From the NCBI GenBank assembly GCA_016937255.1, contig JAFGWG010000199.1:1-38394 (forward strand): a stretch of DNA of 38,394 nucleotides, given 5' to 3'. The stretch's first letter is position 1; each line of letters opens with the position of its first letter. Below, one piece after another: positions 21,461-34,933 of the stretch. Source of the stretch: Bacteroidales bacterium (lineage in GTDB: Bacteria; Bacteroidota; Bacteroidia; Bacteroidales; DTU049). The notes below the pieces were generated by a model that was not told the DNA's origin, made no database searches, and saw only the letters and a program-made list of their open reading frames with translations. Position numbers and translations under genes: made by a program.

Positions 21461-21490
21461 CAAAAAAGCCTGTAGAAAATTCCACAGGCT
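21461..21490 (-). terminator. Intrinsic terminator of the tusA-flpD-hdr-qmoC unit
   Basis: AGCCTGT (21467-21473) and ACAGGCT (21484-21490) pair. On the minus strand the hairpin ends in TTTTTTG, so it stops transcription from the minus-strand operon; it may also affect the convergent YARHG gene. Confidence 0.85.
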
Positions 21491-21516
21491 CCTTGAAAAA
21501 AACAAAGTTCGTGCAC

Positions 21517-22581
21517 TTAGGCTGCATTCAACTTATTCACCTTGTCGAAATACATTGCAAATGATCGGTACAAGAAGTGAGTCCATTTACCAAATGGAAC
21601 GATAATTAATGCCCATTGCACAAGAATTATAACATGGAATAAATAAACCCAGAAATTATCGAGTATGAGTCCAGTATCAACCAGCAGACGAACGGCAAAT
21701 GCTGACACGCCCATAAGGAATAACCAGATTACGAAGAACCAGTCAGACGGATGCGAGAAAGTACTTTTTTCTGATCTTTTTCTAATTCGTCGAATTACGA
21801 AATCGAAGGTTACGATAAATATAATTCCGCTAAACACATATCCCATATAAATAATGAAGGGCACTTCGGTTGCAAACCAGTCGAGAACAACTGTAGTAAA
21901 CAAAAGTGCCAAGTATCCAAATACAAGAATAAAATGTTCGAACCACCAAATTTTATTCTTTGCATCATCGTCGCATTTCAGGGTTCTTTTTTGTGTAAAC
22001 ATATGCACAAGGAGTTCGCCAAAAGCAGAGAAGTAATGTTTAAGTTTGAACCCTTTCTTTTTAGATTGCACTGAGTACAGCCACATTCTAAATATATTTG
22101 GAGTCAAAATGAGTAGAAACACACCCACAATGGCAAGCATTTCGAAATAATGCCCGTAATGAAACCATTCTTCTGTAGTAAATGTATCACTCAAATACGC
22201 ACCAATTACACCTGCAATTACCAGCAGGAAGGAAATAATATAAGCGAGAAGGTTTTTATAGAGTAATCCGCTAAGACCTGTCCAGTCGTAACGAGAAGTT
22301 GCATATCTGCGCAACGACATCATAAGCTCACCAGGTTTGGCTTCCTGCGGGCAATAGGTAGTACACTCACCACAATAATAGCAAAGCCATGGTTTCAAAG
22401 ATCCTTTCACGTCTTCAGAGAGTCCGGTAACGCTAAAACGCACCATTTCTCTTGGGAAAGAATCTTTTTCATCAGACAAAGCACAAACTGCAGTACATGT
22501 TCCGCAATTATAGCAGGCATTGAAATCAATGGCCCCAAATTTCTTTAGCTTTTTTCCGAATTTCAAATCTACCTTTGCCAT
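21517..22581 (-). CDS. QmoC-like membrane subunit (HdrC fused to a cytochrome b-type domain)
   Basis: A 354-residue protein. The N-terminus binds two 4Fe-4S clusters: CYNCGTCTAVC (19-29) and CYYCGECTTYC (67-77), each followed by a further conserved Cys/Pro context, as in HdrC. From about residue 105 there are five or six membrane helices of the nitrate-reductase gamma/HdrE type, with candidate haem histidines. This arrangement is that of QmoC, which links a soluble Hdr-like flavoprotein complex to menaquinone. It is the last gene of the operon; its start overlaps the end of the 90-residue gene upstream by one base. The partner Apr enzyme of known Qmo systems is not in the window. Confidence 0.85.
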   Translation of the reverse strand: MAKVDLKFGKKLKKFGAIDFNACYNCGTCTAVCALSDEKDSFPREMVRFSVTGLSEDVKGSLKPWLCYYCGECTTYCPQEAKPGELMMSLRRYATSRYDWTGLSGLLYKNLLAYIISFLLVIAGVIGAYLSDTFTTEEWFHYGHYFEMLAIVGVFLLILTPNIFRMWLYSVQSKKKGFKLKHYFSAFGELLVHMFTQKRTLKCDDDAKNKIWWFEHFILVFGYLALLFTTVVLDWFATEVPFIIYMGYVFSGIIFIVTFDFVIRRIRKRSEKSTFSHPSDWFFVIWLFLMGVSAFAVRLLVDTGLILDNFWVYLFHVIILVQWALIIVPFGKWTHFLYRSFAMYFDKVNKLNAA

Positions 22582-22853
22582 TATTCCTTAATTTTATAGA
22601 AGTAATACTCGTCCATGTCATCCATAGCGGTGGCCTGGAGTTTATTAAATTTCACAAGAGACATTACATAGTACATGGTCTCTTCTTTGCTCATATCAAT
22701 TTTGTCAGCGATATCGGGAATATTCAACTCCTCTTCTCCGATGGCTTCCAGAATCTTTCTGCGAATTTGATTGAAGGCCTTCAGTTCATCTTTGACCCTC
22801 TGCGATACAGTATGAGTTTCGCGTTTTATCTTAAAAGTTTCTTTTTTTTCCAT
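22581..22853 (-). CDS. Small winged-helix-like protein in the Hdr/Qmo-like operon
   Basis: A 90-residue cytoplasmic protein, charged at the N-terminus (MEKKETFKIKRETH). Residues 29-70 read as a helix-turn-helix (IRRKILEAIGEEELNIPDIADKI and MSKEETMYYVMSLVKF), and the C-terminus is a beta-wing like YYFYKIKE. I cannot name a family. It is locked between hdrA-2 (18 bp upstream) and qmoC (one-base overlap), so it is co-translated with redox subunits and may be a structural or assembly part rather than a transcription factor. Confidence 0.8.
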   Translation of the reverse strand: MEKKETFKIKRETHTVSQRVKDELKAFNQIRRKILEAIGEEELNIPDIADKIDMSKEETMYYVMSLVKFNKLQATAMDDMDEYYFYKIKE

Positions 22854-22871
22854 TTTTCTTCAATTGGAGTT

Positions 22872-24809
22872 TTACAATTCGTTGGCCAAAACATTGATCA
22901 TATTCTCAACCTCATCATCACTAAATGTAATAAGCTGAATAGCATTAGTCGGGCACACAGGCAGACACATTCCACAGCCTTTACAAACAGTATGGTTGAT
23001 AAGAGCTACATCTTTTGATCCAGACTTCACTTTAGAAATCGCATCAAACGGACAGGCAGTTGTACATGCATCGCAATATTGACAAAGATTTTCATCAATC
23101 TTTGCAACAATAGGCTCAACAGACAACTTATCGCTACTTACAAACGAATAAGATTTAATGGATGCCGATAATGCAGAATTAATTGATTCAACTATATTTT
23201 TCGGTCCTTGACAAGCACCGGCAATAGTTACACCATCGATTACCGTTTCCACTGGTCTGAGTTTCATATGAATCTCATTGTAAAACTTATCGCGTCCCTT
23301 AGGAATTTTAAGGATATCACCAATAGTATTATGAGCACGAGGCACCATTCCTGTAACCAACACAACCAAATCGGCTTCAACTTCCAACTCTTTTCTATTG
23401 GTTAGAATATCGTTGATTTTTACGATAGTTTTACCATTCTTATTTTCAACTTTTGTTGGGTCATCGCCATAAGACTGAAAGAAAACATGACCTTGCTTAG
23501 ATGCCTCATGATAGAAAACCTCCTGCTTACCATAGGTTCGCATACCGCGAGTAAAATGGAAATGATTCAGGTTTTTAAACTTATCATTTGATCGAAGAGC
23601 AGTATTGATGGTTGCAGTACAGCAATAACGAGAGCAATACTTATTTTCACCTTCCACCTGACGACTTCCTACACAATAGATATAAGCAACATTTTCAATC
23701 TTCTTACCATTCCATTTCAGTTCACCATTGCTAATAGCAAGCAAACGTTTGTATTGAGAAAGGGTAATAACATTGTCAATAGCTTGATAACCAAATTCAC
23801 CTTCGCCTGGGGTATAAGAATCAAAACCAGTGGCAACGAGCACTGAACCTACTTTCACCTCAACAGTTTCTTCTTTCTGACTTAGGTCAATTTTATCACA
23901 GACCTTTTCACATTCACCGCATCGGGTACAATCGTCCATATTGATAACAGCAGCCTGAGGGTATTCGCTTGGAAAGTTATGATAAATAGCTTTGCGCTTG
24001 GTAATTCCGAAATTAAATTCATCAGGAACTTCAACTGGGCAAACTTCTATTGCTTTTTTAATATTTTCTTTATCATCACAAACATCCGCAACATAGCGAG
24101 GTTTCAGTTTTAGCTGAACATTGAAATTACCTTTACTGCCACCACTACTAACCATCTCTGCACCAGTATAAAGGGTAATATTTTTATTGGCTATAACATC
24201 GGTATAAAGACGAGTAACCAATTCTTTACCTGTTTCTTCAGTTCCACAAAGCACATCCCAATGAGCGATGCGACCACCAATAAAATGTTCGCGTTCTGCA
24301 AGATATACTTGGGTACCCATTTTTGCAAGCGAGATTGCGGCTTTCATTCCAGCAATACCTGCACCTAGAACGAGAACAGCCTGTTGAGTATCAATTTCAA
24401 TGGGCTCAATTGCTTGAGAAAGGCGAACTTTTGCTACAGAAGAACGAACAATTTGAATTGCTTTTTCGGTAGCGCCAATTTTATTATCGGAATGAGGCCA
24501 TGAAACTTGCTCACGAATATTAGCATGAACATAATTATACTTATTCAAGCCGGCACGCTCGGTAACCGCCTGAAAAGTAATCTGATGCAATTTTGGCGAA
24601 CATGATGCTACAACAACTGCATCGAGCTCATTTGCCTTTATATCGGCAACCATTTCCTTTTGATTTGAATCGGCACAGGCAAAGATGGTAGTTTTTGAAA
24701 CGTATACACCATCTTCTTTGGCAAGGACATCTTTCACCTTGTCCACATCAACGTAGTCGGAAATATTTCCGCCACAATGGCAAATATAAACACCTATTTT
24801 CTGCTTCAT
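22872..24809 (-). CDS. HdrA/QmoB-like FAD and iron-sulfur protein
   Basis: A 645-residue HdrA-family protein. The N-terminus has YICHCGGNI (8-16) and ACADSNQ and CSPKLH cysteines. The FAD site is VLGAGIAGMKAA. A 4Fe-4S motif is DDCTRCGECEKVC, and there is a YCSRYCCTATIN cysteine cluster. Two ferredoxin motifs close the protein: CQYCDACTTACP and CKGCGMCLPVCP. This is the full HdrA layout. QmoB of sulfate reducers is an HdrA fused to an MvhD domain; here that domain is the separate gene 26113-26517. The start overlaps the end of the preceding hdrA gene by 4 bp, implying coupled translation. Expected role: flavin-based electron transfer in the cytoplasm, bound to QmoC. Confidence 0.9.
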   Translation of the reverse strand: MKQKIGVYICHCGGNISDYVDVDKVKDVLAKEDGVYVSKTTIFACADSNQKEMVADIKANELDAVVVASCSPKLHQITFQAVTERAGLNKYNYVHANIREQVSWPHSDNKIGATEKAIQIVRSSVAKVRLSQAIEPIEIDTQQAVLVLGAGIAGMKAAISLAKMGTQVYLAEREHFIGGRIAHWDVLCGTEETGKELVTRLYTDVIANKNITLYTGAEMVSSGGSKGNFNVQLKLKPRYVADVCDDKENIKKAIEVCPVEVPDEFNFGITKRKAIYHNFPSEYPQAAVINMDDCTRCGECEKVCDKIDLSQKEETVEVKVGSVLVATGFDSYTPGEGEFGYQAIDNVITLSQYKRLLAISNGELKWNGKKIENVAYIYCVGSRQVEGENKYCSRYCCTATINTALRSNDKFKNLNHFHFTRGMRTYGKQEVFYHEASKQGHVFFQSYGDDPTKVENKNGKTIVKINDILTNRKELEVEADLVVLVTGMVPRAHNTIGDILKIPKGRDKFYNEIHMKLRPVETVIDGVTIAGACQGPKNIVESINSALSASIKSYSFVSSDKLSVEPIVAKIDENLCQYCDACTTACPFDAISKVKSGSKDVALINHTVCKGCGMCLPVCPTNAIQLITFSDDEVENMINVLANEL

Positions 24810-26113
24810 ATCTCTACCTTTGCTTGTTTAATATATCGAATTGCTTCCATAGAGGCTGCACCTGAAGAAAGGATGGTATCTGGAATATCCATTGGGCCAC
24901 TAGTAGTACCAGCAAGAAATACACCATCAATACTACTTAAAGAAGGCGTATAAAACAGGTCTTTCTGTTGTGCAAAAGCAAATTCATCTTGTTTCCATGT
25001 ATCGGCTTTGAACATTGTCTTTGGATCTTCATTAGCCATAGCACCTACAGACAGTACAACCAGATCGTGTTTTGATTCCACAAGTTTACCTTGGTTAATA
25101 TCTTCGTAGCGCACTTTTAGGTCACCATTTTCAAGCTCATCAATTTGGCCAATTTTCCCTTTAACAAAGTTAATACCCATACCTTTAGCCTGTTCGTAAA
25201 ATTCTTCAAATCCTTTACCAAACGAACGAATATTGATGTAATATATAGTTACATCTGCCATTGGTAAAGCACCCATTAATAGTTGAGCCTGTTTAATTGA
25301 ATACATACAGCAAATCTGCGAACAGATTGGATTTCCGACTGTCATATCACGAGATCCTGTACATAGCACATAAGCAATATTATCGGGCATTTTTCCATCA
25401 CCAGGTCGCAAAACGTGATTATACGGACGTGTTGGCGCAAGATGACGCTCCATCTCCATGGATGTAATAACATTTTTAGCTGATCCGTAACTATAGCGAG
25501 GGATTTTCAAAGGATCGAAAAGATTAAAACCTGTAGCAATTACAACAGACTTCACTACAATTTCGTATTCCTTATCTTCCTGTGTAAAATCGATACACTG
25601 AGTAGGGCATGCTTTTTCGCAGGCACCACACAAAGAGCAGTTTTCAATATCGATACTTGCAACACGAGGGCTAGCTATATTAAAAGGTATATAAGCTGCT
25701 TTTCTACCGACCATACCATATTGATACTGATCAGGAACAACAACCGGACAAGCATCTTCGCAAAGCTGACAGCCGGTGCAATTTGAAACATCTACATAAC
25801 GAGCTTTTTCTTTAATCTGAGCCTTGAAATAGTGTTTATCTTGCTTGTCGATATGCAATACCTCAGTATTGGTCATTATCGTAACATTCGGATGACGGTC
25901 AACTTCCGAAATTTTCGGAGTAGTAATACATGCCGAGCAATCAAGTGTAGGAAACACTTTACTCAACATTATCATTTTACCGCCAATCGTCAAATCTTTT
26001 TCAACCAGCAATACCTTCAAACCGTTATTGGCAATATTAATTGCAGATTCTACACCTGCAATTCCTCCACCAACAACGAGGGCATCGAATGATTTTTTTT
26101 CAATGTTTGGCAT
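24806..26113 (-). CDS. HdrA/QmoA-like FAD and iron-sulfur protein
   Basis: A 435-residue short HdrA relative. It starts with an FAD-binding motif, ALVVGGGIAGVESA (11-24), without the long N-terminal extension of the neighbouring HdrA. It has DCSACITTPKI, two ferredoxin motifs (NCTGCQLCEDACP and NCSLCGACEKACP) and a GNPICSQICCMYS cluster, and ends with GVFLAGTTSGPMDIP. Size and layout match QmoA. It overlaps the FlpD-like gene upstream by one base and the larger HdrA downstream by four. It should form a soluble complex with the latter. Confidence 0.9.
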   Translation of the reverse strand: MPNIEKKSFDALVVGGGIAGVESAINIANNGLKVLLVEKDLTIGGKMIMLSKVFPTLDCSACITTPKISEVDRHPNVTIMTNTEVLHIDKQDKHYFKAQIKEKARYVDVSNCTGCQLCEDACPVVVPDQYQYGMVGRKAAYIPFNIASPRVASIDIENCSLCGACEKACPTQCIDFTQEDKEYEIVVKSVVIATGFNLFDPLKIPRYSYGSAKNVITSMEMERHLAPTRPYNHVLRPGDGKMPDNIAYVLCTGSRDMTVGNPICSQICCMYSIKQAQLLMGALPMADVTIYYINIRSFGKGFEEFYEQAKGMGINFVKGKIGQIDELENGDLKVRYEDINQGKLVESKHDLVVLSVGAMANEDPKTMFKADTWKQDEFAFAQQKDLFYTPSLSSIDGVFLAGTTSGPMDIPDTILSSGAASMEAIRYIKQAKVEI

Positions 26114-26517
26114 TATTCGGCATTTTTGTTTTTTATCAATGCTTCATCGAAACTCTTCACCTGCTTTACAAATGACTCACTGCAAACAGAGCAGATAGCA
26201 GCCATTTTCAGACGCATAGGATCAATGTTTTTCTCTTTCATTATATCGTGAGTTCTCTTCACGATATCTCCTGTTTTTTCCGTGCACGATTCACCATAAG
26301 GGCAATCGCTTCCATCGGCGGCAATAAAAACACCATCGAATCCCTGCTCAAAAGCGTGCAGAATCCATTTTGTTTTAACAGCACTAGAACATGGAAGTGG
26401 AATTGTATAGACTTTTGGCGGATAATGCAATTTCAGTAATCCTGCCATATCAATGGCAGGATCTGAAATTTTGTCGGTAGAAAACACTAATATTCGTGCA
26501 TTCAACTTCGAATTCAT
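26113..26517 (-). CDS. FlpD/MvhD-like iron-sulfur subunit
   Basis: A 134-residue protein of the MvhD/FlpD family (PF02662), which carries a 2Fe-2S cluster and passes electrons to HdrA. Its conserved cysteines are in PCSSAV, GSDCPYGESCTEKT and CSVCSESF. In QmoB this domain is fused to HdrA; here it is separate. It lies 4 bp from tusA-2 and overlaps the hdrA gene by one base, so the three are surely co-transcribed. Confidence 0.9.
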   Translation of the reverse strand: MNSKLNARILVFSTDKISDPAIDMAGLLKLHYPPKVYTIPLPCSSAVKTKWILHAFEQGFDGVFIAADGSDCPYGESCTEKTGDIVKRTHDIMKEKNIDPMRLKMAAICSVCSESFVKQVKSFDEALIKNKNAE

Positions 26518-26521
26518 AGTC

Positions 26522-26773
26522 TTAAACTTTTTTTAAGAAAATGCGGAAATACCCATTTTCCTCTAAAGTACCAAGATATTCATGGCCTTGCTTCTTGCAC
26601 CATTTTGGAATATCTACACGGGTACCTTCGTCAGCTGAAAGAACTTCCATGGTTTCGCCACTTCCGAGTCCGCCAATTGCTTTTTTAGCTTCCAATAGTG
26701 GGCCGGGACATGCAGTTCCACGAGCATCAACACTTTTATTCACGCTTAAGGTTTTCAATTCTTCAGTTTCCAT
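26522..26773 (-). CDS. tusA: TusA-family sulfur carrier protein
   Basis: An 83-residue TusA/SirA protein with the persulfide cysteine in the signature RGTACPGPLLEAKKAI (about 19-34). It is cytoplasmic and carries sulfane sulfur between partners. It is the first gene of the unit that encodes FlpD, two HdrA proteins and QmoC, an arrangement implying that it delivers or receives sulfur in connection with this complex. A promoter and an Fnr/Crp-type site lie upstream. A paralogue is at 32530. Confidence 0.92.
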   Translation of the reverse strand: METEELKTLSVNKSVDARGTACPGPLLEAKKAIGGLGSGETMEVLSADEGTRVDIPKWCKKQGHEYLGTLEENGYFRIFLKKV

Positions 26774-26824
26774 TTTTCTATTTTTTAGTTATTTAATCAA
26801 TTTCTGCGCTGCAGAATCACTTAG

Positions 26825-26832
26825 CAAAGATA
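26825..26832 (-). promoter_or_regulatory. -7 box of the tusA-flpD-hdr-qmoC unit
   Basis: TATCTTTG on the minus strand fits TAnnTTTG fully; start expected near 26818, 45 nt before the tusA ATG. No good -33 TTTG was seen, which fits an activator-dependent promoter. Confidence 0.65.
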
Positions 26833-26908: not shown

Positions 26909-26924
26909 TGTGACATAAATCACA
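26909..26924. promoter_or_regulatory. Crp/Fnr-type operator TGTGA-N6-TCACA
   Basis: TGTGACATAAATCACA is a perfect palindrome with half-sites TGTGA and TCACA. It is nearly identical to the site at 34235-34250 in front of the second Crp/Fnr gene. It is about 98 bp upstream of the expected start of the tusA-qmoC unit. Confidence 0.7.
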
Positions 26925-26935: not shown

Positions 26936-27349
26936 TTAGATGGATATATGGATATCTGCTTCTTTCGCAGCATCGAGATACTGTCCAATTCCACATATTC
27001 CATCAACGATATCGATAAAATCTTCCATTTTCTCACCACCCCACAGTTTACCTGCCAGGCTACAGATATAAAATTTCACATCGGTAAATTCTTTAGCCTG
27101 CTCAAAAAACTCGAGCCAAGATGGAGTGTTAAGTTCTTTCAATTTGCTCAACATTTCCTCTTTCTGCTCTGGATATTCAACGAAAGAGTCTGTTAAACCC
27201 TCGTTGCCCTTCACAAAAGCACGAGCAGCTGTAAGCAACACATATACTTCAATTTCATAATCATCGGCAGCGGCACCAACCATCATAACGCCGGCTCCTG
27301 TAAGTTTATCAATACTTCCCGATGACAATCCAATAGTCATTTTTGCCAT
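26936..27349 (-). CDS. DsrE-like sulfur-transfer family protein
   Basis: I start the gene at MAKMTIGLSSGSIDK (27349), giving about 137 residues; the longer frame adds 12 residues reaching back toward the rhodanese gene. It belongs to the DsrE/DsrF-like superfamily (GVMMVGAAADDYEIEVYVLLTAAR). The likely reactive cysteine is in FYICSLAGKLWGGEK. It is cytoplasmic and expected to exchange sulfur with TusA. It is the last gene of the transport and rhodanese unit, 23 bp after the rhodanese. A close paralogue is at 33699-34130. Confidence 0.85.
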   Translation of the reverse strand: MAKMTIGLSSGSIDKLTGAGVMMVGAAADDYEIEVYVLLTAARAFVKGNEGLTDSFVEYPEQKEEMLSKLKELNTPSWLEFFEQAKEFTDVKFYICSLAGKLWGGEKMEDFIDIVDGICGIGQYLDAAKEADIHISI

Positions 27350-27372
27350 AACAATCTTTTTATTAGTGATTA

Positions 27373-27882
27373 TCATCCACCACAACCACCACCACCGTGG
27401 GATGCAGCGGGTTTATTTTCTTCTGAACCTGAGGGCTCAAGTTGCACGTCTTCAGGATATTTTTCCTGCCACACGTCATAACCCGAATCAATCATAACGG
27501 CTTTCGAGTACTTTAGCTTTGCCATATCATAAACAGCAAGTGCTGAGCGATTGGTATTATTGCAATACACATAAACGGTTTCGCCGCGAGATACTTTATC
27601 TCCGATACTGAACTCCAGTACACCTCTGGGGACATTAATGGCCCCGGGGATGCATGAAATTGCGAATTCTTCAGGTTCACGAACATCAACGATGGTCAAG
27701 TGCTCTGCTTCTGCAAATTCAGTATGAAACTCATCGATACTGATACTAGTAATGTTTTCTTTAGCAAAGCTCACCATCTCGTCGACTGAGCTGTATTGCT
27801 TATCATCGGCCGCATTATTGCATGCAGTGAATGCATACATCAAAGCAATTGCAAAAACAGTAAAAAGAATTCTGTTTTTCAT
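27373..27882 (-). CDS. Single-domain rhodanese lipoprotein with Gly-Cys tail
   Basis: A 169-residue lipoprotein (YAFTAC lipobox). One rhodanese domain is present: VDVREPEEFAISCIPGAINVP, then the active-site loop YCNNTNRSA with the catalytic Cys. The protein ends HGGGGCGG, an exposed cysteine in a glycine tail also found on the rhodanese at 30812. Rhodaneses carry sulfane sulfur as a Cys persulfide. This one should work outside the cytoplasm. Spacing to neighbours is 12-23 bp, so it is in the operon. Confidence 0.9.
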   Translation of the reverse strand: MKNRILFTVFAIALMYAFTACNNAADDKQYSSVDEMVSFAKENITSISIDEFHTEFAEAEHLTIVDVREPEEFAISCIPGAINVPRGVLEFSIGDKVSRGETVYVYCNNTNRSALAVYDMAKLKYSKAVMIDSGYDVWQEKYPEDVQLEPSGSEENKPAASHGGGGCGG

Positions 27883-27894: not shown

Positions 27895-28680
27895 TTAATT
27901 CCAGGCAGAATAACCGCCATCAAAAACTTTAACATTAGGATAGCTCAGCAATTCATGGAGTATAAACCATGCATAGCTAGCTGAAGAGCTGGTTTTACAA
28001 TACACAATAACCTCTTTATTACTAGTTACACCTTTATTATTAAAAAGGGATGTTAGCTCACCTGAACTTTTCAGTTTGGTTTCAGGGTTATTGAAATACG
28101 CGTAAGGGATATTTACAGCGCCATCGATATGACCAGCATTATAATCAGCTGCTTCACGGGTATCAAGAATTACAGTTGTGGCACTACCCAGTTTTGATGT
28201 TACATAAGCTTTGTCGCATACCATTGCGCTGTTTGAACCAGCAGAGAATGAACCACCACTTTTAGTAGTAGCTTTATTGGTTACAGGATAGCGAGAAGAA
28301 ACCCATCCAGCCATATTTCCATGTAGGCATTTTACATTTGTTGCACCCAGATACTTCAGAATGAAGTACATACGTCCGGCACGAACTCCAGTTTTGCAAT
28401 AAATTACAATTGCACTGTTTTTTGAAACGCCGTTTGATGCAAAAACTGAAGCCATTGCAGAAGCACTTTGCATAGCATTATTTGAGCAAAGAGTTTCCAC
28501 ATCAATATTAATGGCTCCTTTAACGTGAGATTTATTGTAATCGGCAGCACCACGTGCATCGATACAAATAACAGAATTATTGTCTATCTCAGGTTTCAGA
28601 CTTTTTGCTGAAGTCATCTGAGCACTGGCATAACTCAAAAAGGCTATGAATAATACCAGTATTGAAATCGTTTTTTTCAT
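27895..28680 (-). CDS. Exported tandem rhodanese
   Basis: A 261-residue protein with a signal peptide (FLSYASAQ). It has two rhodanese domains, each with an active cysteine: IYCKTGVRAG in the first and VYCKTSSSAS in the second. The CRKGxR-like loop of the first suggests thiosulfate or related donors, but substrate is not proved. It is in the operon (12 bp to the next, 18 bp from the porin). Confidence 0.9.
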   Translation of the reverse strand: MKKTISILVLFIAFLSYASAQMTSAKSLKPEIDNNSVICIDARGAADYNKSHVKGAINIDVETLCSNNAMQSASAMASVFASNGVSKNSAIVIYCKTGVRAGRMYFILKYLGATNVKCLHGNMAGWVSSRYPVTNKATTKSGGSFSAGSNSAMVCDKAYVTSKLGSATTVILDTREAADYNAGHIDGAVNIPYAYFNNPETKLKSSGELTSLFNNKGVTSNKEVIVYCKTSSSASYAWFILHELLSYPNVKVFDGGYSAWN

Positions 28681-28698: not shown

Positions 28699-29781
28699 TT
28701 AGAATTTTGCCTGCAGCTGAATGATAAGCATATCGTTTGTTACAGCTGTTGGCTCGTTTACATATACATAGTTTATTTGCAAACGTGAGTAATCGTTTAT
28801 GAAATAATTAATTCCAAATGTTAAACGATCACTCCATGCGTTTGATGTATCTGAATCTGCTGTGTATGAGTCGAATTTAATTACAGGCTCAATATTCCAC
28901 GACGTTTTATATGAAATCATAGCGTAATAACCACTTTTGTGATAATCGCCAGCAATTTTTGTATCATACGCTACAATTCCACCGCATCCTCCATAAACAG
29001 GCACCATAGATGGACTGTATAAGCGATCAGTACCCATCATATATTCACCTTGAAACATGAAGTTTTTATAATCGACCTTCACTTCACCAGCATAACGATA
29101 AAGATCATTTTTAACAGAATCTGGATTAGTAGGATTTACTTTTCCCGTTCTGAAACTACCACCAACTTGAAGAAATTCAAGAGGTTTTACCGTTAAACGA
29201 CCTACTAAGTGCTTATTTCCATTGTCATCATAAACACCTAATCCTGTTCCATTCATAAATCCTAAGCTATAGCGAAGCAGAGTGGTATCGTTACCACCGC
29301 TTACCATAACACCAAGATCACGCATAGGACCAGCAAGCTGAGTTACAACGTCGGAACGATTAACGGTATATAATTCTGAACAACCAGTATTCTGTTCCAA
29401 ACTAAATGGAGACTTAAACTGCCCCAAAGAGATTTTCGCATACTTACCGAAGCGCGTATAAGAAACATATGCATCGAGTAAATGCGGTGTAGCTGCCTGG
29501 TTTTTGAAAGGACTAATTTCAGTAAAGAAATAATAGTCTATATCATAAATGATAGATCCCAAAACGCCAAGACGAGCGCGGTTAAACATAAAAGAGTTTT
29601 CATCTAAGCTATTGCCAGCAGCATCATCACCATTAAAATTGTACATGAACTGAGGCTGGATAAACCCTTTTACTTTAGCGCCATCGCCCGAGTCGCCGCC
29701 CATACAACCCTGTGAAAAAACAGCAGTTGAAGAGAACAGCAACACGGCGAAAAGAATGCTTAAATTACGAAAAGTTTTCAT
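28699..29781 (-). CDS. Outer-membrane porin of the OprO/OprP-like family
   Basis: A 360-residue beta-barrel protein with a signal peptide (STAVFSQ) and family features VKGFIQPQFMYNF, FNRARLGVLGSI, LGQFKSPFSLEQ and a C-terminal ending in LQAKF. OprO/P proteins are anion channels (phosphate or related oxyanions). The setting among rhodaneses and a sulfur transporter suggests uptake of a sulfur anion such as thiosulfate, which is inference. Spacing to neighbours is 12-18 bp. Confidence 0.85.
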   Translation of the reverse strand: MKTFRNLSILFAVLLFSSTAVFSQGCMGGDSGDGAKVKGFIQPQFMYNFNGDDAAGNSLDENSFMFNRARLGVLGSIIYDIDYYFFTEISPFKNQAATPHLLDAYVSYTRFGKYAKISLGQFKSPFSLEQNTGCSELYTVNRSDVVTQLAGPMRDLGVMVSGGNDTTLLRYSLGFMNGTGLGVYDDNGNKHLVGRLTVKPLEFLQVGGSFRTGKVNPTNPDSVKNDLYRYAGEVKVDYKNFMFQGEYMMGTDRLYSPSMVPVYGGCGGIVAYDTKIAGDYHKSGYYAMISYKTSWNIEPVIKFDSYTADSDTSNAWSDRLTFGINYFINDYSRLQINYVYVNEPTAVTNDMLIIQLQAKF

Positions 29782-29794
29782 GGCTATCTAAATA

Positions 29795-30769
29795 TTAGTT
29801 GGTTACGTAAGGATATGAGCCTGAAGCAGTCCACTTATGACCTGTCATATTGCTATAAATCATACCATTAGCACCAAACTTCAAACTCTTTGCGGTATAG
29901 CCAAGAATAGTTAGATATGCAGTAATTGCAGATGAAGTTTGTCCGGTATAGCAATAAGTAACAACAGTACCAGCTGAATTCAAATTAAGGAATCCATTGT
30001 CTGTCAAATTCAGAGTTTCTTTAATTCTGTATGCACCAACAATATGACCCATTGCGTTTACATCAGATTCAACCCAATAATTATTGATAAAATAATTGGT
30101 AGGAGTAGTTAAAACATCAGTATTGGTAACACCCTGAAAACCAAGAGTAAGAATGTAATTTACACGCTCTTGAAGGATTCCAGCACCAGTTGTAGCAGTA
30201 CAAGTAAGTGAAGGAGCAGCAAATGTTACAGGAGTTTGAATAGTGTTGGTTGTTGACCAATTTGAATTACCAATTCCAACATCACCAATATTAGTAGTCC
30301 AACTATCAAAATCTGAGTTCCATGCGCTCATACCGAAAAGAAGAATTTTACAATCTGAGTAACCACTTAAACGAAGAGCAACATGCGCCCATGCAGCTGT
30401 TTGTCCTGTATAACATGCAATAACAATAGGAGTTCCATTTGCACTATCGGCAACAGTAAGAATATTTCCTAATGTTGAATTGTGTGCTCCATCAATATGA
30501 CCTAGACCAAAGTCAGTTGAGTTTCTAAGGTCAATTATAAAATAGTTTGCAATTCCAATTGAATCCAAATCATGAGCAGAAATGGTCCAACCTGTTAAAA
30601 CTGAAGTGAGATCCATGCTATTTGCAGCAAGATAAGTTGTTAACTCGCTATGATAGTCAGTTACAACCGGATCAACAATGTCGTCATCATCTTTTCGACA
30701 TGAAGAAATTACCACTGATAAAGCTAATGCAACCAGCATTAAAATGTTTAAAAACTTTTTGTTTTTCAT
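29795..30769 (-). CDS. Tandem rhodanese-like lipoprotein
   Basis: A 324-residue lipoprotein (VVISSC) with an acidic linker (RKDDDDIVDP). Two rhodanese-like domains follow: FIIDLRNSTDFGLGHIDGAHN with loop ACYTGQTAAW, and VESDVNAMGHIVGAYRI with loop YCYTGQTSSA. Both active loops read CYTGQT, a variant loop, so each has a cysteine. It is exported. It starts 41 bp after the preceding rhodanese gene ends. Confidence 0.88.
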   Translation of the reverse strand: MKNKKFLNILMLVALALSVVISSCRKDDDDIVDPVVTDYHSELTTYLAANSMDLTSVLTGWTISAHDLDSIGIANYFIIDLRNSTDFGLGHIDGAHNSTLGNILTVADSANGTPIVIACYTGQTAAWAHVALRLSGYSDCKILLFGMSAWNSDFDSWTTNIGDVGIGNSNWSTTNTIQTPVTFAAPSLTCTATTGAGILQERVNYILTLGFQGVTNTDVLTTPTNYFINNYWVESDVNAMGHIVGAYRIKETLNLTDNGFLNLNSAGTVVTYCYTGQTSSAITAYLTILGYTAKSLKFGANGMIYSNMTGHKWTASGSYPYVTN

Positions 30770-30811
30770 CTTGTTTGTGTTTTATTTGTGTTTGTTTTTA
30801 GTTTCAATTTA

Positions 30812-31297
30812 TCAGCCACCGCAACCACCAGATGAATGGGGTGTAGCTGAAGATTCGTCAAATTCGGGATCAAATGCCATAAATCCTCCTTCGAGGTTCA
30901 CAACATTATTGAAACCCAGTTGATTTAGGGTTTTGGCAGCAAGAATTCCCCTATTACCACTTTTGCAGTATATAATAATTAAGGTAGACTTTTCGGGTGG
31001 ATAGAGATATTGCTCAGACCAAAAATCCGCATCATTGATTTTAAATTCCAGCTGTCCTCTGGGAATATTAACAGATCCCGGAATATTTCCAAGCAGGTAT
31101 TCATTAGACTGACGAACATCGATTAGCACGTACTCATTTTCTGAATCGAGGATGGTTTGCAATTTTGCCACGCCAATTTGCTCTACCTTGTCAACGTTAT
31201 CATTCGCCAATTCAGAGCCATCTTCATAAATTCCTACACAAGAACTTATGCTTAAAGCCAGAAAGGCAATCATTAGAAACCTAAGTATATTTTTCAT
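30812..31297 (-). CDS. Single-domain rhodanese lipoprotein with Gly-Cys tail
   Basis: A 161-residue lipoprotein (LSISSC). One rhodanese domain: VLIDVRQSNEYLLGNIPGSVNIP, active loop IYCKSGNRGI with catalytic Cys. It ends HSSGGCGG, the same tail as the rhodanese at 27373. It lies 12 bp downstream of the YeeE/YedE transporter gene. It may hand sulfur to that transporter. Confidence 0.9.
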   Translation of the reverse strand: MKNILRFLMIAFLALSISSCVGIYEDGSELANDNVDKVEQIGVAKLQTILDSENEYVLIDVRQSNEYLLGNIPGSVNIPRGQLEFKINDADFWSEQYLYPPEKSTLIIIYCKSGNRGILAAKTLNQLGFNNVVNLEGGFMAFDPEFDESSATPHSSGGCGG

Positions 31298-31309
31298 AGC
31301 TGTTTTGTT

Positions 31310-32518
31310 TTAGAAGGCACTGAATTTTCCTGTTTTTTCATTCCATTTGACAAACCAATACCAGAACAAGAGTATGGCAACAACGAGTGCAAAAGAGCCA
31401 CCGTAACCAATATAATCTGGCAAGAAGCTTTTGAATTTCATACTTTGAGGCAGAATTCCATCAACTTTTGGAACAAGAAATAGCTTAGAGATTGGCGCCA
31501 TAAGTAGGAAACCAATACCTGATAACCACAGCTTGAATTGTCCTTCACCAATACGCCATAATGTACCAACGGCGCATCCACCGGCAATGGTCATTCCGAT
31601 ACCGAAAATCACACCACCAATTGCAGCTTTTGCCCAAAAATGTGGAAAAACCCATGTCATTTCACGAGCTCTCAGTGATGTAACATCGACACCAATACCG
31701 AAATATTTAATGGCAGTAAATCCAAAAAGAGCAATCATTAAACCTGCAATTACTCCAACTGCACCGTGAGACTCTCCAGTCATTAATGGATCACGGAAAG
31801 CTTTAACAATACAGAAACGAGAGCGCTGACTAATAAGGCCAAAAAGCGCACCTACTATAACAAACCAAGTCATAGTCTGTAGTGATTTTGTATAGGAATA
31901 AGCTAAAACGCCAACTCCAACCACCATAACCCAACCAAGTATGGTATGTGTACGACCTTTTCCTTTTGCAGAAAACCAGGTATAGCTCTTTCCTGAGCTC
32001 CATTTTGGGAATTTTTCCATTTCCCACATGAGATAACGAAGGGCAACAATTACACCCACCATTAGAGCAAAACTAAATATTATTGCTCCTCCTGAAAGAG
32101 CTGGAACTCCACTAAAAAAAGCACCTATGGTACATCCAAGTCCGATTGTTGCACCAATTGCCATGAGAATACCACCCAAAAGACCTTTTATCATTTCACC
32201 CTTAGGAGGAATACGAAGCGCAAAATCTTTTGAAAACAAAGCTCCAATAAATGAGCCCACAATAATCATCAGACAAAGCATTCCATATAAACTAGCATTG
32301 GTAGCAGTTACATTCTCCAAAGAAAAGACTCCTAGTACAGAATATATGTTTTCACCCCAGTTGCCAATACCACCACTAGCACCCCATGGGCTCTTGATGG
32401 CAAAAAGCAGAATATTTAAAAATCCCAACAAAATACCACCAACCCAAACAGGCCAGTGCTTTCCGAAGAAAGTCTTAAACAACTGAGTCAAAACAGAACC
32501 TTCATTCGTTTTGGACAT
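31310..32518 (-). CDS. YeeE/YedE-family sulfur transporter
   Basis: A 402-residue membrane protein with about nine to ten helices and two repeated halves. Conserved cysteines lie in GLGCTIGAFFSGVPALSGG and AGGCAVGTLWRIGEG, with a further RSRFCIVKAFRDPLM, the signatures of YeeE/YedE (PF04143; TsuA-type) transporters, which pass thiosulfate or other sulfur compounds through the cytoplasmic membrane. A TusA-family gene lies directly upstream (12 bp), a standard partner. It is expected to supply cytoplasmic TusA with sulfur. Confidence 0.92.
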   Translation of the reverse strand: MSKTNEGSVLTQLFKTFFGKHWPVWVGGILLGFLNILLFAIKSPWGASGGIGNWGENIYSVLGVFSLENVTATNASLYGMLCLMIIVGSFIGALFSKDFALRIPPKGEMIKGLLGGILMAIGATIGLGCTIGAFFSGVPALSGGAIIFSFALMVGVIVALRYLMWEMEKFPKWSSGKSYTWFSAKGKGRTHTILGWVMVVGVGVLAYSYTKSLQTMTWFVIVGALFGLISQRSRFCIVKAFRDPLMTGESHGAVGVIAGLMIALFGFTAIKYFGIGVDVTSLRAREMTWVFPHFWAKAAIGGVIFGIGMTIAGGCAVGTLWRIGEGQFKLWLSGIGFLLMAPISKLFLVPKVDGILPQSMKFKSFLPDYIGYGGSFALVVAILLFWYWFVKWNEKTGKFSAF

Positions 32519-32529
32519 GATATAATCTC

Positions 32530-32760
32530 CTATTTTTTCTTAATTAACATGCGGGTTACACCACCTTCAATATCTTCCTGAAGCACAAGTTCATTACCAG
32601 TTTTCTCACACCAGTGTGGCATATCTGACTTGGTTCCAGGATCTGTGCCCAACATTTCAAGTACATCACCTGAGTTCAGCCCTTTCATTGCTTTCGAAAG
32701 TTTCATCATTGGCATTGGACATGAAAGCCCCTTGCAATCTAAAGTCGTAGTAATTTCCAT
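32530..32760 (-). CDS. tusA: TusA-family sulfur carrier protein
   Basis: A 76-residue TusA/SirA protein from the start MEITTTLDCKGLSCPMPM, with the persulfide cysteine in SCPMPMM. The frame extends 26 residues upstream, but that part spans the -7 box and is not native. It is the first gene of the transport and rhodanese unit, next to the YeeE/YedE transporter, so it is likely the acceptor of imported sulfur. A promoter match lies at 32791-32824. Confidence 0.92.
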   Translation of the reverse strand: MEITTTLDCKGLSCPMPMMKLSKAMKGLNSGDVLEMLGTDPGTKSDMPHWCEKTGNELVLQEDIEGGVTRMLIKKK

Positions 32761-32790
32761 AACAATTTGTTTTAAAATTTGTTCATGAAG

Positions 32791-32824
32791 CAAAGATATA
32801 GCAGCATATAACCCTTTATGCAAA
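32791..32824 (-). promoter_or_regulatory. Promoter of the tusA-yeeE-rhodanese unit
   Basis: On the minus strand TTTG (32821-32824), 22 bp, then TATCTTTG (32791-32798) fits the Bacteroidota consensus. The start would be near 32784, 24 nt before the tusA ATG. It is divergent from the Crp/Fnr gene at 32952. Confidence 0.7.
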
Positions 32825-32878
32825 ACTGTTAACGGCATAACAACATCAAATCAAATAAGTACATCATAGAAAAAACTG

Positions 32879-32893
32879 ATTCAGATCATGAAT
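32879..32893. promoter_or_regulatory. Palindrome ATTCA-N5-TGAAT between divergent promoters
   Basis: ATTCAGATCATGAAT lies between the tusA and Crp/Fnr promoters, about 50 bp upstream of the latter's expected start. It may be an operator; the binding protein is unknown. Confidence 0.4.
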
Positions 32894-32901
32894 TTTACTG
32901 A

Positions 32902-32929
32902 TTTGTAGTTGTTATATTTCATATATTTG
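32902..32929 (+). promoter_or_regulatory. Promoter of the first Crp/Fnr-family gene
   Basis: TTTG (32902-32905), 16 bp, then TATATTTG (32922-32929). The -7 box is a full match; the spacing is short. The start would be near 32936, 16 nt before the ATG at 32952. Confidence 0.6.
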
Positions 32930-32951
32930 CTGAACACAAGGATAATGCACA

Positions 32952-33647
32952 ATGAAAGAAAATAGTGGTTTTAGTTCCTGTACACTTTCGTACGACATGA
33001 ATACCTGCTTCGAAAAACTTTCGGATGAGGAATTGATGTTATTTGAAAACAATAAATTAGAAGTTACTTATAAAAAAGGCGAAATCCTATGCAAGCAAGG
33101 GGCATTTGCTTCACATATTACATTTATATGCAACGGATTGGTCAGACTTTATCTGGAAGATGAAGTGAACACTCTAACGCTTCAGCTTATTCCATCGGGA
33201 GGTATTATTGGTCTAACATCGCTTACAAAAAACAGCAACATTTTTCATTACTCTGCTATGGCATATCAGGACACTACTGCGCAACATTTGGATATCAGCA
33301 TGTTTCATCATCTTGTTCAAAGCAATGCCGCCTTTGCAACCGAAATTACAAATGTACTTTGCGATAGCACATTACAAACCTATGGTCGCTTCTTTTCTTT
33401 CATGCACAAACAATCTTATGGAAGAATGGCAGATACGCTTATGTGCCTTGCAACACGGATTTTCAATTCAATGGAATTCGACCTCCCGCTATCCAGAAAA
33501 GAACTTGCCGATTTAACTGGATTATCTCAGGAAAGTGTCATTCGTATCCTTAAGAAATTTAAGGACGAAAACCTAATTGAAATAGAGGGCAAAACATATC
33601 GCATCAACGATGGTGACAAGCTCAATGAAATAAGCCAGCACGGATAA
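32952..33647 (+). CDS. Crp/Fnr-family transcription regulator
   Basis: A 231-residue regulator. The N-terminal cNMP-binding-like fold begins around YKKGEILCKQGAFASH; the C-terminal helix-turn-helix is LPLSRKELADLTGLSQESVIRILKKF. Cysteines at 10, 19, 47 and 60 could allow redox or iron-sulfur sensing, but the FNR pattern is not exact. It is divergent from the tusA-yeeE-rhodanese unit and convergent with dsrE-2, so control of those genes is likely. Confidence 0.9.
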   Translation: MKENSGFSSCTLSYDMNTCFEKLSDEELMLFENNKLEVTYKKGEILCKQGAFASHITFICNGLVRLYLEDEVNTLTLQLIPSGGIIGLTSLTKNSNIFHYSAMAYQDTTAQHLDISMFHHLVQSNAAFATEITNVLCDSTLQTYGRFFSFMHKQSYGRMADTLMCLATRIFNSMEFDLPLSRKELADLTGLSQESVIRILKKFKDENLIEIEGKTYRINDGDKLNEISQHG

Positions 33648-33651
33648 AAAA

Positions 33652-33676
33652 AATCCCGCCCAATTTGGGCAGGATT
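33652..33676 (-). terminator. Terminator between the Crp/Fnr gene and dsrE-2
   Basis: AATCC-C-GCCC and GGGC-A-GGATT pair around AATTT. On the minus strand the hairpin is followed by a run of T, so it should stop the minus-strand dsrE-2 transcript; it may also work on the plus strand less well. Confidence 0.8.
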
Positions 33677-33698
33677 CAAAAAGAATACAGTCTATATT

Positions 33699-34130
33699 TT
33701 ATATAAACAAATGTATATCGGCTTCTTCAGCCTTGGTAATATATTCGCTTATTCCAACAATATCATCGGCAAAATCTACAAAGTCTTCAATTTTTTCTCC
33801 ACCCCAAAGTTTCCCTGCTAAACCGCAAATATGAAACTTTACATTGCCAATTTCTTTTGCTTCTCTAAAAAATTCATGCCATTCCTTCACATTCAAATTC
33901 TTACATGCCTGAATAAATTCTTCTCTGAGTTCACCATTTTCAGCCATATTGATTTTATCTTTATGTTCAGCCACGTCTTTAAGCATTGCTCTCGCACCCT
34001 GCAATAAAACATAAACATCAACGTCCATATCATCAGCAACAGCTCCACTGATAATCACACCGGCTGCAGTCATTTTATCCAAACACCCACTAAATAGAGC
34101 CAGACACATTTTTCTATTTTCCATTTGCAA
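33699..34130 (-). CDS. DsrE-like protein, paralogue of 26936-27349
   Basis: A 143-residue protein. Its core matches the paralogue: GVIISGAVADDMDVDVYVLL and FHICGLAGKLWGGEKIEDF, with a shared cysteine and a common ADIHLFI ending. It is transcribed alone, from a promoter at 34151, in the regulator-rich upstream part of the sulfur locus. Likely role: sulfur relay in the cytoplasm. Confidence 0.85.
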   Translation of the reverse strand: MQMENRKMCLALFSGCLDKMTAAGVIISGAVADDMDVDVYVLLQGARAMLKDVAEHKDKINMAENGELREEFIQACKNLNVKEWHEFFREAKEIGNVKFHICGLAGKLWGGEKIEDFVDFADDIVGISEYITKAEEADIHLFI

Positions 34131-34150
34131 TTGTTTTTAAGTTAACAATA

Positions 34151-34158
34151 CAAAGGTA
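34151..34158 (-). promoter_or_regulatory. -7 box of dsrE-2
   Basis: TACCTTTG on the minus strand fits TAnnTTTG; start near 34144, 14 nt before the ATG at 34130. No clear -33 TTTG is visible, and no perfect TGTGA-N6-TCACA site is near. Confidence 0.55.
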
Positions 34159-34228
34159 TATTCAGATATTGAGATATGTATCTGGTATTTTGTGATGTTT
34201 GGAAAGGCATTATGTGATAAAATAAACG

Positions 34229-34250
34229 TATATTTGTGATCTAAATCACA
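34229..34250 (+). promoter_or_regulatory. -7 box overlapped by a TGTGA-N6-TCACA operator
   Basis: TATATTTG (34229-34236) is a full -7 match. TGTGATCTAAATCACA (34235-34250) overlaps it and the expected start site and ends 5 bp before the ATG at 34256. This position points to repression, probably self-control by the Crp/Fnr protein it precedes. The same site type lies at 26909-26924. Confidence 0.7.
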
Positions 34251-34255
34251 CCTCA

Positions 34256-34933
34256 ATGTATGAGATTTGTACAACATGTGGGAAAAGATCGGCTGCTTCG
34301 AAATTTTTATCGGAAGTAGAACTTGAAAATCAAGCCAATAACTGCGTTGAATTAAAGTTCAATAAAGGAGATAATATTATCCGTCAAGGAACTCTGTCAT
34401 CCAATGTTGCCTTCCTCAAAGAAGGCCTTGTGAAACTTCACATGAAAGGTCCTTTATACGAGCAAATAACAAAGATCACAAAAGCCCCTTCATACCTTGG
34501 ATTACCAACTACTTTTGGCGATAAAATCAATCAGTATTCCGTTACTGCCATTGAAGAATCAATTGTATGTTTTATCGACATGAATGTTTTTAAAACCTTC
34601 ATCACCAATAATCCAAATTTTACTTATCAGCTTTTTATAGAGTTGTGTTTGAACGAACTTACTTCATTTCGCAGATGTGTAAACAGAACACAGAAACAAG
34701 TAAGCGGGAGCCTGGCAGAAAACCTTTTATATTTTGCTAACCAGATTTACGAATCAGATGAATTTACACTCCCTCTAAGTCGTGAAGAATTTGGCAACCT
34801 TGTCGATGCTTCGCGCGAAAGTGTAAGCCGTACCCTAAGCGATTTTCAAGAAGATGGTATTATTAAAATTGACAAAAAAATGATCAAAATACTCAAGAAG
34901 GACAAGTTAGAGATGATTAGTAAGAACGGGTAA
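34256..34933 (+). CDS. Crp/Fnr-family transcription regulator with N-terminal Cys pair
   Basis: A 225-residue Crp/Fnr protein. Its N-terminus, MYEICTTCGKR, has Cys5 and Cys8, with Cys30 further on; such a cysteine set could bind an iron-sulfur cluster or sense redox or sulfur state. The helix-turn-helix is LPLSREEFGNLVDASRESVSRTL. A perfect palindrome overlaps its promoter (self-repression likely) and recurs before tusA-flpD-hdr-qmoC, which makes this protein the best candidate for that unit's regulator. Confidence 0.9.
   Translation: MYEICTTCGKRSAASKFLSEVELENQANNCVELKFNKGDNIIRQGTLSSNVAFLKEGLVKLHMKGPLYEQITKITKAPSYLGLPTTFGDKINQYSVTAIEESIVCFIDMNVFKTFITNNPNFTYQLFIELCLNELTSFRRCVNRTQKQVSGSLAENLLYFANQIYESDEFTLPLSREEFGNLVDASRESVSRTLSDFQEDGIIKIDKKMIKILKKDKLEMISKNG

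Follow-up and report, generated by a model that had tools for sequence, protein, structure and literature searches.

The window analysed here is one whole contig (JAFGWG010000199.1, C86 in our numbering) of 38,394 bases, from a Bacteroidales genome of 3.85 Mb that is 96.3% complete. Between 34.1 and 21.5 kb its minus strand carries, in the direction of transcription, dsrE2, the run tusA1-yeeE-rho161-rhoL324-porin-rhoT261-rhoD169-dsrE1 and the run tusA2-mvhD-qmoA-qmoB-winged helix-qmoC, accompanied on the plus strand by two Crp/Fnr genes at 32.95 and 34.26 kb. A 162-base gap separates dsrE1 from tusA2; within both gene runs the gaps range from -13 to 42 bases. The locus consists of two modules, a core operon (dsrE-tusA-mvhD-qmoA-qmoB-winged helix-qmoC, frequently accompanied by a divergent Crp/Fnr gene) and an import cassette that is found less often (tusA, yeeE, genes for four exported rhodaneses, a porin gene and dsrE). 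Sequence comparisons indicate that it is real and conserved, and that it joins a variant of the Qmo/Hdr-type complexes to a separable cassette, with a function proposed from its genes: their products probably catch sulfur outside the cell, relay it inward by way of successive cysteines and use it in electron exchange with a membrane enzyme complex. The distinguished features are as follows.

34256-34933, plus strand: crp2, Crp/Fnr regulator gene adjoining the core genes
34235-34250: CRP-type palindrome between dsrE2 and crp2
33699-34130, minus strand: dsrE2, DsrE-like sulfurtransferase beside a Crp/Fnr gene (PF13686, 35.5 bits; cut-off 25)
32952-33647, plus strand: crp1, Crp/Fnr regulator gene, divergent from the import cassette
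32530-32838, minus strand: tusA1, TusA of the import cassette (PF01206, 85.5 bits)
31310-32518, minus strand: yeeE, YeeE/YedE-family importer (PF04143, 170 bits)
30812-31297, minus strand: rho161, lipobox rhodanese with a C-terminal Gly-Cys tail (PF00581, 70 bits)
29795-30769, minus strand: rhoL324, lipobox protein of 324 amino acids (aa) with two rhodanese domains (PF00581, 61 bits; second half 22.0, cut-off 22.2)
28699-29781, minus strand: outer-membrane porin (PF07396, 59 bits)
27895-28680, minus strand: rhoT261, exported two-domain rhodanese (PF00581, 135 bits over two stretches)
27373-27882, minus strand: rhoD169, lipobox protein of rhodanese fold (PF00581, 57 bits)
26936-27385, minus strand: dsrE1, DsrE-like sulfurtransferase (PF13686, 32.9 bits; cut-off 25)
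26909-26924: CRP-type palindrome TGTGA-N6-TCACA, 5' of tusA2
26522-26773, minus strand: tusA2, TusA of the core (PF01206, 81.6 bits)
26113-26517, minus strand: mvhD (FlpD), separate electron-transfer subunit of 134 aa (PF02662, 98.8 bits)
24806-26113, minus strand: qmoA-like HdrA flavoprotein (HdrA2 model, 459 bits, below the full-length cut-off; PDB HdrA by profile, E about 1e-132)
22872-24809, minus strand: qmoB-like second HdrA flavoprotein (HdrA2 model, 552 bits, below the cut-off)
22581-22853, minus strand: winged-helix gene (hyp90), present in 75 of 80 named loci
21517-22581, minus strand: qmoC-like HdrC/HdrE membrane subunit (NF038018, 154 bits; cut-off 300)

The family scores place two TusA and two DsrE proteins, YeeE, the porin and the HdrA-, HdrA- and HdrC/E-like proteins where a preliminary description of this DNA had put them. 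No AprAB, DsrAB, HdrB or Sox genes were recognised among the locus genes (no genome-wide Sox search was made), again in line with that description. It had counted six rhodanese domains, of which five pass the Pfam cut-off (one each in rho161, rhoL324 and rhoD169, two in rhoT261); the sixth, the second half of the 324-aa protein, falls just under it (22.0 bits vs. 22.2) and has a CxTGQ loop in 11/11 homologues, so that six seems a fair count. The separate MvhD/FlpD gene, the winged-helix gene, the two CRP-type palindromes and the GGCGG tails discussed below go beyond the preliminary description. The nearest solved chain to dsrE1 is 2qs7_A (E 5e-17), which we take to be a Sulfolobus DsrE3-type protein. 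Lipoboxes were called by eye, with no signal-peptide program.

To describe the distribution of the core operon, we looked for QmoA in 295 genomes of the order and called a core-type protein where a single continuous match reached at least 57% identity (a contig end truncates the match in a few genomes). Core QmoA was identified in 46 genomes, the host included, and seven further genomes encode a QmoA of about 920 aa with an inserted domain, which matches in two parts at 55-59%. The neighbourhoods of 45 order-sample loci (the 46 core genomes minus the host) and of the best 80 named QmoA loci were fetched; the two sets share at least 11 contigs. The core genes recur around QmoA in both sets, which bears out the expected conservation of the gene group. 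The named loci were picked through QmoA, so the presence of qmoA is built into that set; clusters of homologous open reading frames (ORFs) were found there for mvhD and qmoA/qmoB in 80 loci each, dsrE in 77, tusA in 76, the winged helix in 75 and qmoC in 72. These clusters share the strand of qmoA, except for one extra HdrA-like ORF, and a Crp/Fnr cluster occurs in 58/80 loci, mostly on the opposite strand. By a strict count (all seven core genes by BLAST at 1e-4 within 5.5 kb), the complete set is present in 29 of the 45 order-sample loci and 53 of the 80 named ones. The three loci lacking dsrE (L122, L135, L164) start just 5' of qmoA, and the five lacking the winged helix (L096, L098, L117, L127, L161) end shortly past qmoA.

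Among the 45 largest ORF clusters, the remaining big ones are mostly opposite-strand frames over core genes or overlapping same-strand frames (overlap with labelled genes was verified for the unlabelled same-strand clusters). The exceptions are cassette genes (rhodanese in 10 loci, porin in nine, yeeE in eight) and some neighbours in 3-8 loci. An extra DsrE-like family of 122 aa, named by eye, lies on the core strand in 5/80 loci (e.g. L114, 5532-5909) and overlaps no labelled gene. The core operon was also seen on contigs named Aminicenantes, Chlorobi, Chlorobiota and Krumholzibacteriota (L090, L141, L145, L147), through either transfer or binning error. Core QmoA was not found in the other three listed members of the host family; loss explains this equally well, and no transfer between lineages is claimed. 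At E 1e-30 core MvhD was found in the host alone among a 395-genome phylum sample, which holds few listed members of the order and has little bearing on frequency. Two cultured carriers of the core were distinguished, Prolixibacter denitrificans DSM 27267 and Seramator thermalis.

TusA is known to act as a hub for sulfur, and Cys22 of tusA2 is present in 107/107 distinct homologues (identical sequences were collapsed to one for all residue counts). Likewise, Cys102 of dsrE2 is retained in 51/51 homologues and Cys108 of dsrE1 in 14/14, five cysteines of mvhD are found in 110/110, and the eight cluster cysteines of qmoC, together with histidines 144, 216 and 335, in 81/81. The alignment of qmoA comprises a FAD domain, two ferredoxin-type motifs and additional conserved cysteines. 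The qmoB protein matches positions 1-641 of the 777 positions of HdrA2, the C-terminal MvhD part being absent.

The import cassette is rarer. Its YeeE (search cut-off E up to 1e-40) was found in 16 of the 295 genomes and is linked to the core, which is carried by 12 of these 16 genomes vs. 34 of the 279 others (Fisher p=6e-8); the four YeeE genomes without the core are 66-92% complete. The preliminary description had presented the locus as a single integrated system, and this did not hold: the cassette YeeE was not matched in 34/46 core carriers, so the core must function independently of the cassette. The suggested capture of sulfur outside the cell, on the other hand, gained support from the lipobox rhodaneses, the invariant cysteines of the porin and an Asp-rich stretch in rhoL324. 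This stretch directly follows the lipobox cysteine (at least four Asp/Glu per seven residues in 8/10 distinct stretches); the other two lipobox rhodaneses have 0-3 Asp/Glu at the same place, although the wrong cysteine was taken in a few rows. It resembles the Bacteroidetes lipoprotein export signal, and rhoL324 may perhaps be exposed at the cell surface. Its rhodanese-domain cysteines, C119 and C273, are conserved in 11/11 homologues.

The two remaining lipobox proteins are distinguished by their C-termini, which read G/S-G-C with the next residue nearly always G. In rho161 the active-site C111 and the tail C159 are each present in 13/13 homologues. In rhoD169 the tail Cys167 is present in 15/15, and the rhodanese active-site cysteine in just 3/15; the loss of the latter in most homologues marks the tail as the conserved thiol. 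GGCGG within the last eight residues was found in 24 of 2,746 ORFs of at least 100 aa from 126 loci (some contigs were counted twice), every one of them a cassette rhodanese. The GGCGG cysteine of SoxY binds sulfur (PMC6067878). The window proteins thus resemble SoxYZ in being exported with a C-terminal, glycine-flanked cysteine tail, but differ in that the tail sits on a rhodanese-fold protein in which Pfam finds a rhodanese and no SoxY domain. What appears to be new here, besides the invariant cysteines of the porin, is the class of predicted exported rhodaneses that end in a SoxY-like Gly-Cys tail; the tail cysteine does not vary, not even in proteins that have lost the active-site cysteine. 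Other GGC-ending rhodanese-like proteins were noticed at L070 1-747, L121 20097-20714 and L136 14990-15631, the last adjoining a second YeeE homologue. In rhoT261 the second-domain C228 is present in 13/13 homologues and the first-domain cysteine in 4/13.

C26, C134 and C266 of the porin are conserved in 11/11 homologues, C266 within a GGC motif. The AlphaFold model has a mean pLDDT of 77 (about 60 at residues 261-270) and 16 barrel strands were counted, by which C134 and C266 would lie in long loops on the outside; a disulfide between them would be the plain alternative. Foldseek matched the model to Omp32 and OprP, and the protein scores below the ExtI selenite/tellurite model NF040900 (48 bits vs. 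a cut-off of 150). YeeE matches the TsuA structure 6leo (E 2e-14) but stays below the curated TsuA cut-offs (77.7 bits of 645 and 98 of 400). Its C129, C236 and C315 are present in 12/12 homologues and align with the TsuA cysteines with the two halves swapped in order; the conserved cysteines of TsuA have a role in transport (PMC11582611). C35, C40 and C77 of tusA1 are present in 3/3 homologues, few having tusA1 as their best match.

The core complex shares with the QmoABC that serves AprAB an operon of two HdrA-type flavoproteins and an HdrC/HdrE membrane subunit, but the window operon lacks AprAB and carries TusA, DsrE and the winged-helix gene. On sequence grounds it is distinct from Apr-linked QmoABC. 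AprB (PF12139) was unmatched in the host genome (AprA was not searched), absent in 39 of the 46 core genomes, and found in none of 14 control genomes. Six of the seven core genomes that have AprB (G176, G083, G007, G153, G052, G098) also hold an Apr-linked QmoA that is 31.5-34.7% identical to that of the window, and hence contain a pair of Qmo-type systems; the contig of the seventh (G103) stops shortly past aprA. None of the seven matches the PF01077 sulfite reductase. The layout aprB-aprA-qmoA-qmoB-qmoC was observed in L169-L171, L178 and L179, with AprA and AprB confirmed by NCBIfam for L169 alone (880.8 and 207.4 bits) and the other layouts named by likeness. Against NF038018, core-type QmoC proteins score 154 (window), 153.5, 190 and 212 bits, and three Apr-linked QmoC of the order pass the cut-off with 384, 404 and 356 bits. 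In a tree of 39 sequences, core QmoA and the ~920-aa variants fall together in a starred set of 22 (100/100), and eight Apr-linked QmoA make up another (100/100); the tree carries a long-branch warning, so just this separation is used. Core QmoA of L075 and L076 group in it with the ~920-aa variants. The Apr-linked QmoB of L169 has an MvhD-like C-terminus (VhuD model at 571-703, 66.6 bits, below the cut-off), but in the equally Apr-linked L175 QmoB (574 aa) and an MvhD-like ORF occupy separate frames, as in the window, so the separation of MvhD from QmoB discriminates poorly between the two types.

Loci were fetched from five of the seven genomes with an inserted-domain QmoA (L180-L184), and in these the QmoA proteins of 914-921 aa are encoded in the same operon. 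The insertion is about 450 aa long, and in the two proteins scanned (L180, L181) it contains Fer4_20 and a full-length Pyr_redox_2, which we take to be the make-up of GltD/NfnB-type NAD(P)H oxidoreductases. This domain suggests NAD(P)H as a possible further electron-exchange partner of the complex. In the same five loci the winged-helix model matches the QmoB protein itself (5/5, E 1e-17 to 8e-21), and in L181 and L182 BLAST locates the winged helix at the C-terminal end of QmoB. No cysteine is conserved in the winged-helix protein; D78, D79, D81, E82 and Y86 are invariant in 16 sequences. It is likely a subunit of the complex and not a regulator. Its predicted fold (pLDDT 88) is matched best by SmtB (Foldseek, E 5e-4); kinship with DsrD was considered and dropped, since DsrD (1ucr) ranked 30th (E 1e-2). 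A selenocysteine-containing QmoA was likewise dropped: the in-frame stops are the terminal stop in full-length ORFs, and the L059 ORF is broken in two.

A related arrangement was noticed by eye in L188 (547-13001) and L189 (306-13640), where Qmo-like, HdrA and MvhD genes stand beside [NiFe]-hydrogenase- and hyp-like genes. These clusters resemble the window in having HdrA-like, QmoC-like, HdrA-like and MvhD genes with a Crp/Fnr gene, but the partner genes are [NiFe]-hydrogenase-like in place of TusA and DsrE. They may possibly encode a quinone-linked Mvh-type hydrogenase.

The exact sequence TGTGA-N6-TCACA occurs in the window at 26909-26924, within the 162-base gap, and between dsrE2 and crp2, and nowhere else. 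Its position in the gap makes it probable, as far as sequence can tell, that tusA2-qmoC has a promoter of its own. With one mismatch allowed, the window alone holds three palindromes vs. 1.53 expected, a number reached in 18 of 100 shuffles (not significant). The support comes instead from recurrence 5' of the core in other loci: the palindrome is present there in 28 of 75 named loci and missing in 47, as compared with a mean of 0.04 in 50 mononucleotide shuffles (five of the 80 loci had no tusA2 match or short upstream sequence). C5, C8 and C105 of the core Crp protein (crp2) are conserved in 74/74 homologues. Judging from the palindromes and the gene neighbourhood, a Crp/Fnr protein would control the core.

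Other sulfur enzymes of the host were also sought. PF01077 sulfite reductase had no match in the host genome and was found in 4/46 core genomes (ORFs of 561-841 aa), being absent in 42. Together with the lack of an AprB match in this 96%-complete genome (Sat was not searched), this agrees with the earlier view that the complex is not an ordinary Qmo with Apr or Dsr encoded elsewhere. The sole CCG-domain (PF02754) protein of the host is a lone ORF of 247-250 aa on contig C118, with no hdrA-like ORF in the 15 kb inspected around it. The sole PF00384 protein is the alpha subunit of formate dehydrogenase (802 bits, cut-off 666), which leaves the host without a Psr, Phs or Ttr from that family.

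Taken together, these data suggest an outside-to-inside relay of sulfane sulfur, coupled to a membrane HdrA/Qmo-type complex with persulfidated TusA/DsrE as partner and likely working reductively, a reading to which we give a likelihood just short of even. Sulfane sulfur (polysulfide, chains derived from S0, or thiosulfate) would first encounter the two-domain rhodanese lipoprotein at the cell surface and then pass through the cysteine-bearing porin. In the periplasm it would be held covalently on the Gly-Cys tails of rho161 and rhoD169 in the fashion of SoxY, as their invariant cysteine suggests. Hand-over to YeeE, then to TusA1 inside the cell and on to DsrE and TusA2 would follow from the roles of these families. 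Conserved adjacency points to the TusA2/DsrE persulfide as the partner of the complex of QmoABC-like proteins, MvhD and the winged-helix protein, where it would take the place that AprAB has in sulfate reducers. QmoC would connect to menaquinone, and the HdrA flavins may merge a second, low-potential stream from ferredoxin or NAD(P)H. The complex would most likely work in the direction of sulfide, disposing of electrons by reducing the persulfide.

The relay is supported by the recurrent core set, the invariant cysteines, the link between YeeE and the core, the GGCGG tails and the CRP-type sites, and also by the absence of AprB and PF01077 matches from the host and most core genomes, the formate dehydrogenase as sole PF00384 protein of the host, the second, Apr-linked QmoA in six of the seven core genomes with AprB, the closeness of DsrE to 2qs7_A, the QmoA insertion and the joining of the winged helix to QmoB. 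Reduction is favoured on two grounds: the searches run brought up no other sulfur reductase in the host, and an import chain this large suits a bulk substrate. Direction, substrate and contact with the partner are what we infer from the gene content, conservation and invariant cysteines that were observed. The respiration of sulfane sulfur put forward in the preliminary description seems plausible.

Several points weigh against this proposal. The midpoint potentials of S0/HS- (about -270 mV) and menaquinone (about -74 mV) make menaquinol alone too oxidising to reduce sulfane sulfur, which calls for a second donor; the insertion of NAD(P)H type in the relatives would be the kind of part able to supply one. 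The locus lacks an HdrB-type subunit, and most core carriers (34/46) lack the cassette YeeE. The porin and rhoL324 were not found in two (L055, L079) of the six order-sample cassettes (the others being L041, L053, L059 and L070). The lack of further molybdopterin reductases applies to the host alone: one to four PF00384 matches occur in 7/8 other carriers searched, with two in Prolixibacter denitrificans. AprB in 7/46 core genomes would suit an oxidative route too. The sHdr systems that pair Hdr proteins with TusA and DsrE elsewhere are, moreover, oxidative (PMC6067878).

Oxidation is accordingly what we consider the strongest rival, since Hdr-TusA-DsrE associations elsewhere work in that direction. 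A TusA/DsrE persulfide or sulfide would here pass electrons through the HdrA-type complex to menaquinone, perhaps with bifurcation to NAD(P)+ or ferredoxin, giving sulfane sulfur or sulfite, and Apr-Qmo would finish the process to sulfate in the few genomes having it. By the potentials given above such electron flow would be downhill, and AprB in seven core genomes fits it. The YeeE-like SoxT1A imports sulfur to be oxidised (PMC11582611), and the Hdr genes of Black Sea isolates of several phyla, including Bacteroidota, which are the nearest mention in the literature, were interpreted in terms of either oxidation of sulfur or detoxification of sulfide (PMC11129491). The likeness to the sHdr-LbpA system lies in HdrA encoded beside TusA and DsrE-type sulfurtransferases (PMC6067878). 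However, the window locus has a membrane HdrC/HdrE subunit and no HdrB (CCG), just a lone CCG protein being encoded elsewhere in the host, and no LbpA was seen among the locus genes (no genome-wide LbpA search was made). The absence of AprB in 39/46 core genomes also speaks against oxidation, as does the fact that no clear candidate for a terminal acceptor enzyme is encoded in the locus, though weakly, given that no search for LbpA, SQR or oxidases was made. We regard this direction as rather unlikely.

A disproportionation of the YTD type, in which the YeeE-TusA-DsrE cassette would feed an intracellular process with the Qmo-like complex handling one branch, is improbable. YeeE, TusA and DsrE-type genes occur together in the window as in the YTD, or DsrEFH type II, cluster (PMC12998232, PMC13293266), and the latter study, which equates YTD with DsrEFH type II, reports it from 985 genomes in 20 phyla, so that its distribution may be wider. 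A porin, lipoprotein rhodaneses and YeeE are moreover co-localised in the disproportionator Desulfurivibrio dismutans, where they were proposed to import sulfur (PMC12142623). That organism, however, has Psr, Dsr and Apr, and the part of its description considered here mentions neither a Qmo-like core nor a carrier tail. The DsrE and CHP1-3 of YTD were found just in Desulfobacterota, Nitrospirota and Acidobacteriota (PMC12998232), whereas all window cassette genes belong to other families: its DsrE is of the PF13686, 2qs7 type, the cassette is joined to a Qmo-like core, and no CHP- or DsrFH-like gene was recognised in a comparison made without YTD sequences. The host gave no AprB or PF01077 match for an oxidative branch, 34/46 core carriers lack YeeE, and PMC13293266 itself calls the link of the cluster to the process poorly supported.

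An assimilatory or housekeeping role is of similarly low probability. Sulfide or persulfide would be provided for cysteine, Fe-S clusters and tRNA thiolation without sulfite reduction, with the complex as reductant; a host without a PF01077 match would need reduced sulfur, and TusA serves as a sulfur hub (PMC11582611). A multi-subunit, quinone-linked complex seems heavy for such a task, and core QmoA is missing from the host family's three further listed genomes, which can thus dispense with it.

Selenium trafficking resembling that of YedE/YedF is very improbable: YeeE reaches 135 bits with the selenium YedE/FdhT model (cut-off 350) and the host has SelD (408 bits), but at E up to 1e-40 SelD, found in 25/46 core and 6/16 YeeE carriers, was not found in the other 21 and 10 (some genomes being incomplete), which disfavours selenium as the general role. 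An ordinary QmoABC serving AprAB was rejected as highly unlikely, in spite of the shared architecture, the real though sub-threshold NF038018 match of QmoC and the split QmoB and MvhD-like ORF of L175, on the grounds of the missing AprB match, the QmoC score below a cut-off that Apr-linked proteins of the order pass, the separate QmoA clade and the six genomes that carry both systems.

Elsewhere in the window, a CRISPR array of nine copies spaced at 75-77 bases occupies positions 1-694, near genes for a type II Cas9 (6032-10141) and Cas1 (3156-4097), between which lie an ATPase_2 gene and an ORF of 217 aa that was assigned to no family. A Fib_succ_major domain extends over two overlapping ORFs at 2064-3052, likely a frameshifted gene, and an arylsulfotransferase (ASST) family protein carrying a Por secretion tail is encoded at 11603-13267.

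No published description of a Qmo-TusA-DsrE operon or of tailed rhodaneses was found (subscription papers and preprints lay outside the scope of the search). We tentatively suggest that the core may represent an undescribed respiratory complex, of HdrA/Qmo type and with a protein-bound persulfide as partner, which in some genomes would be wired to NAD(P)H through the GltD-like domain of QmoA and could be extended by a covalent relay of rhodanese tails from porin to YeeE. The two cultured carriers make the core directly testable. If the proposal is true, the tailed rhodaneses would provide a protein-level route for sulfane sulfur across the periplasm without its release. Qmo-type complexes would then seem to be a modular, quinone-linked platform with swappable partners (APS reductase, a persulfide carrier, NAD(P)H and perhaps hydrogenase), and the core-bearing Bacteroidales (46 of 295 genomes) would carry out an intracellular sulfur redox process that is missed by surveys of dsr, apr, sox and psr markers.

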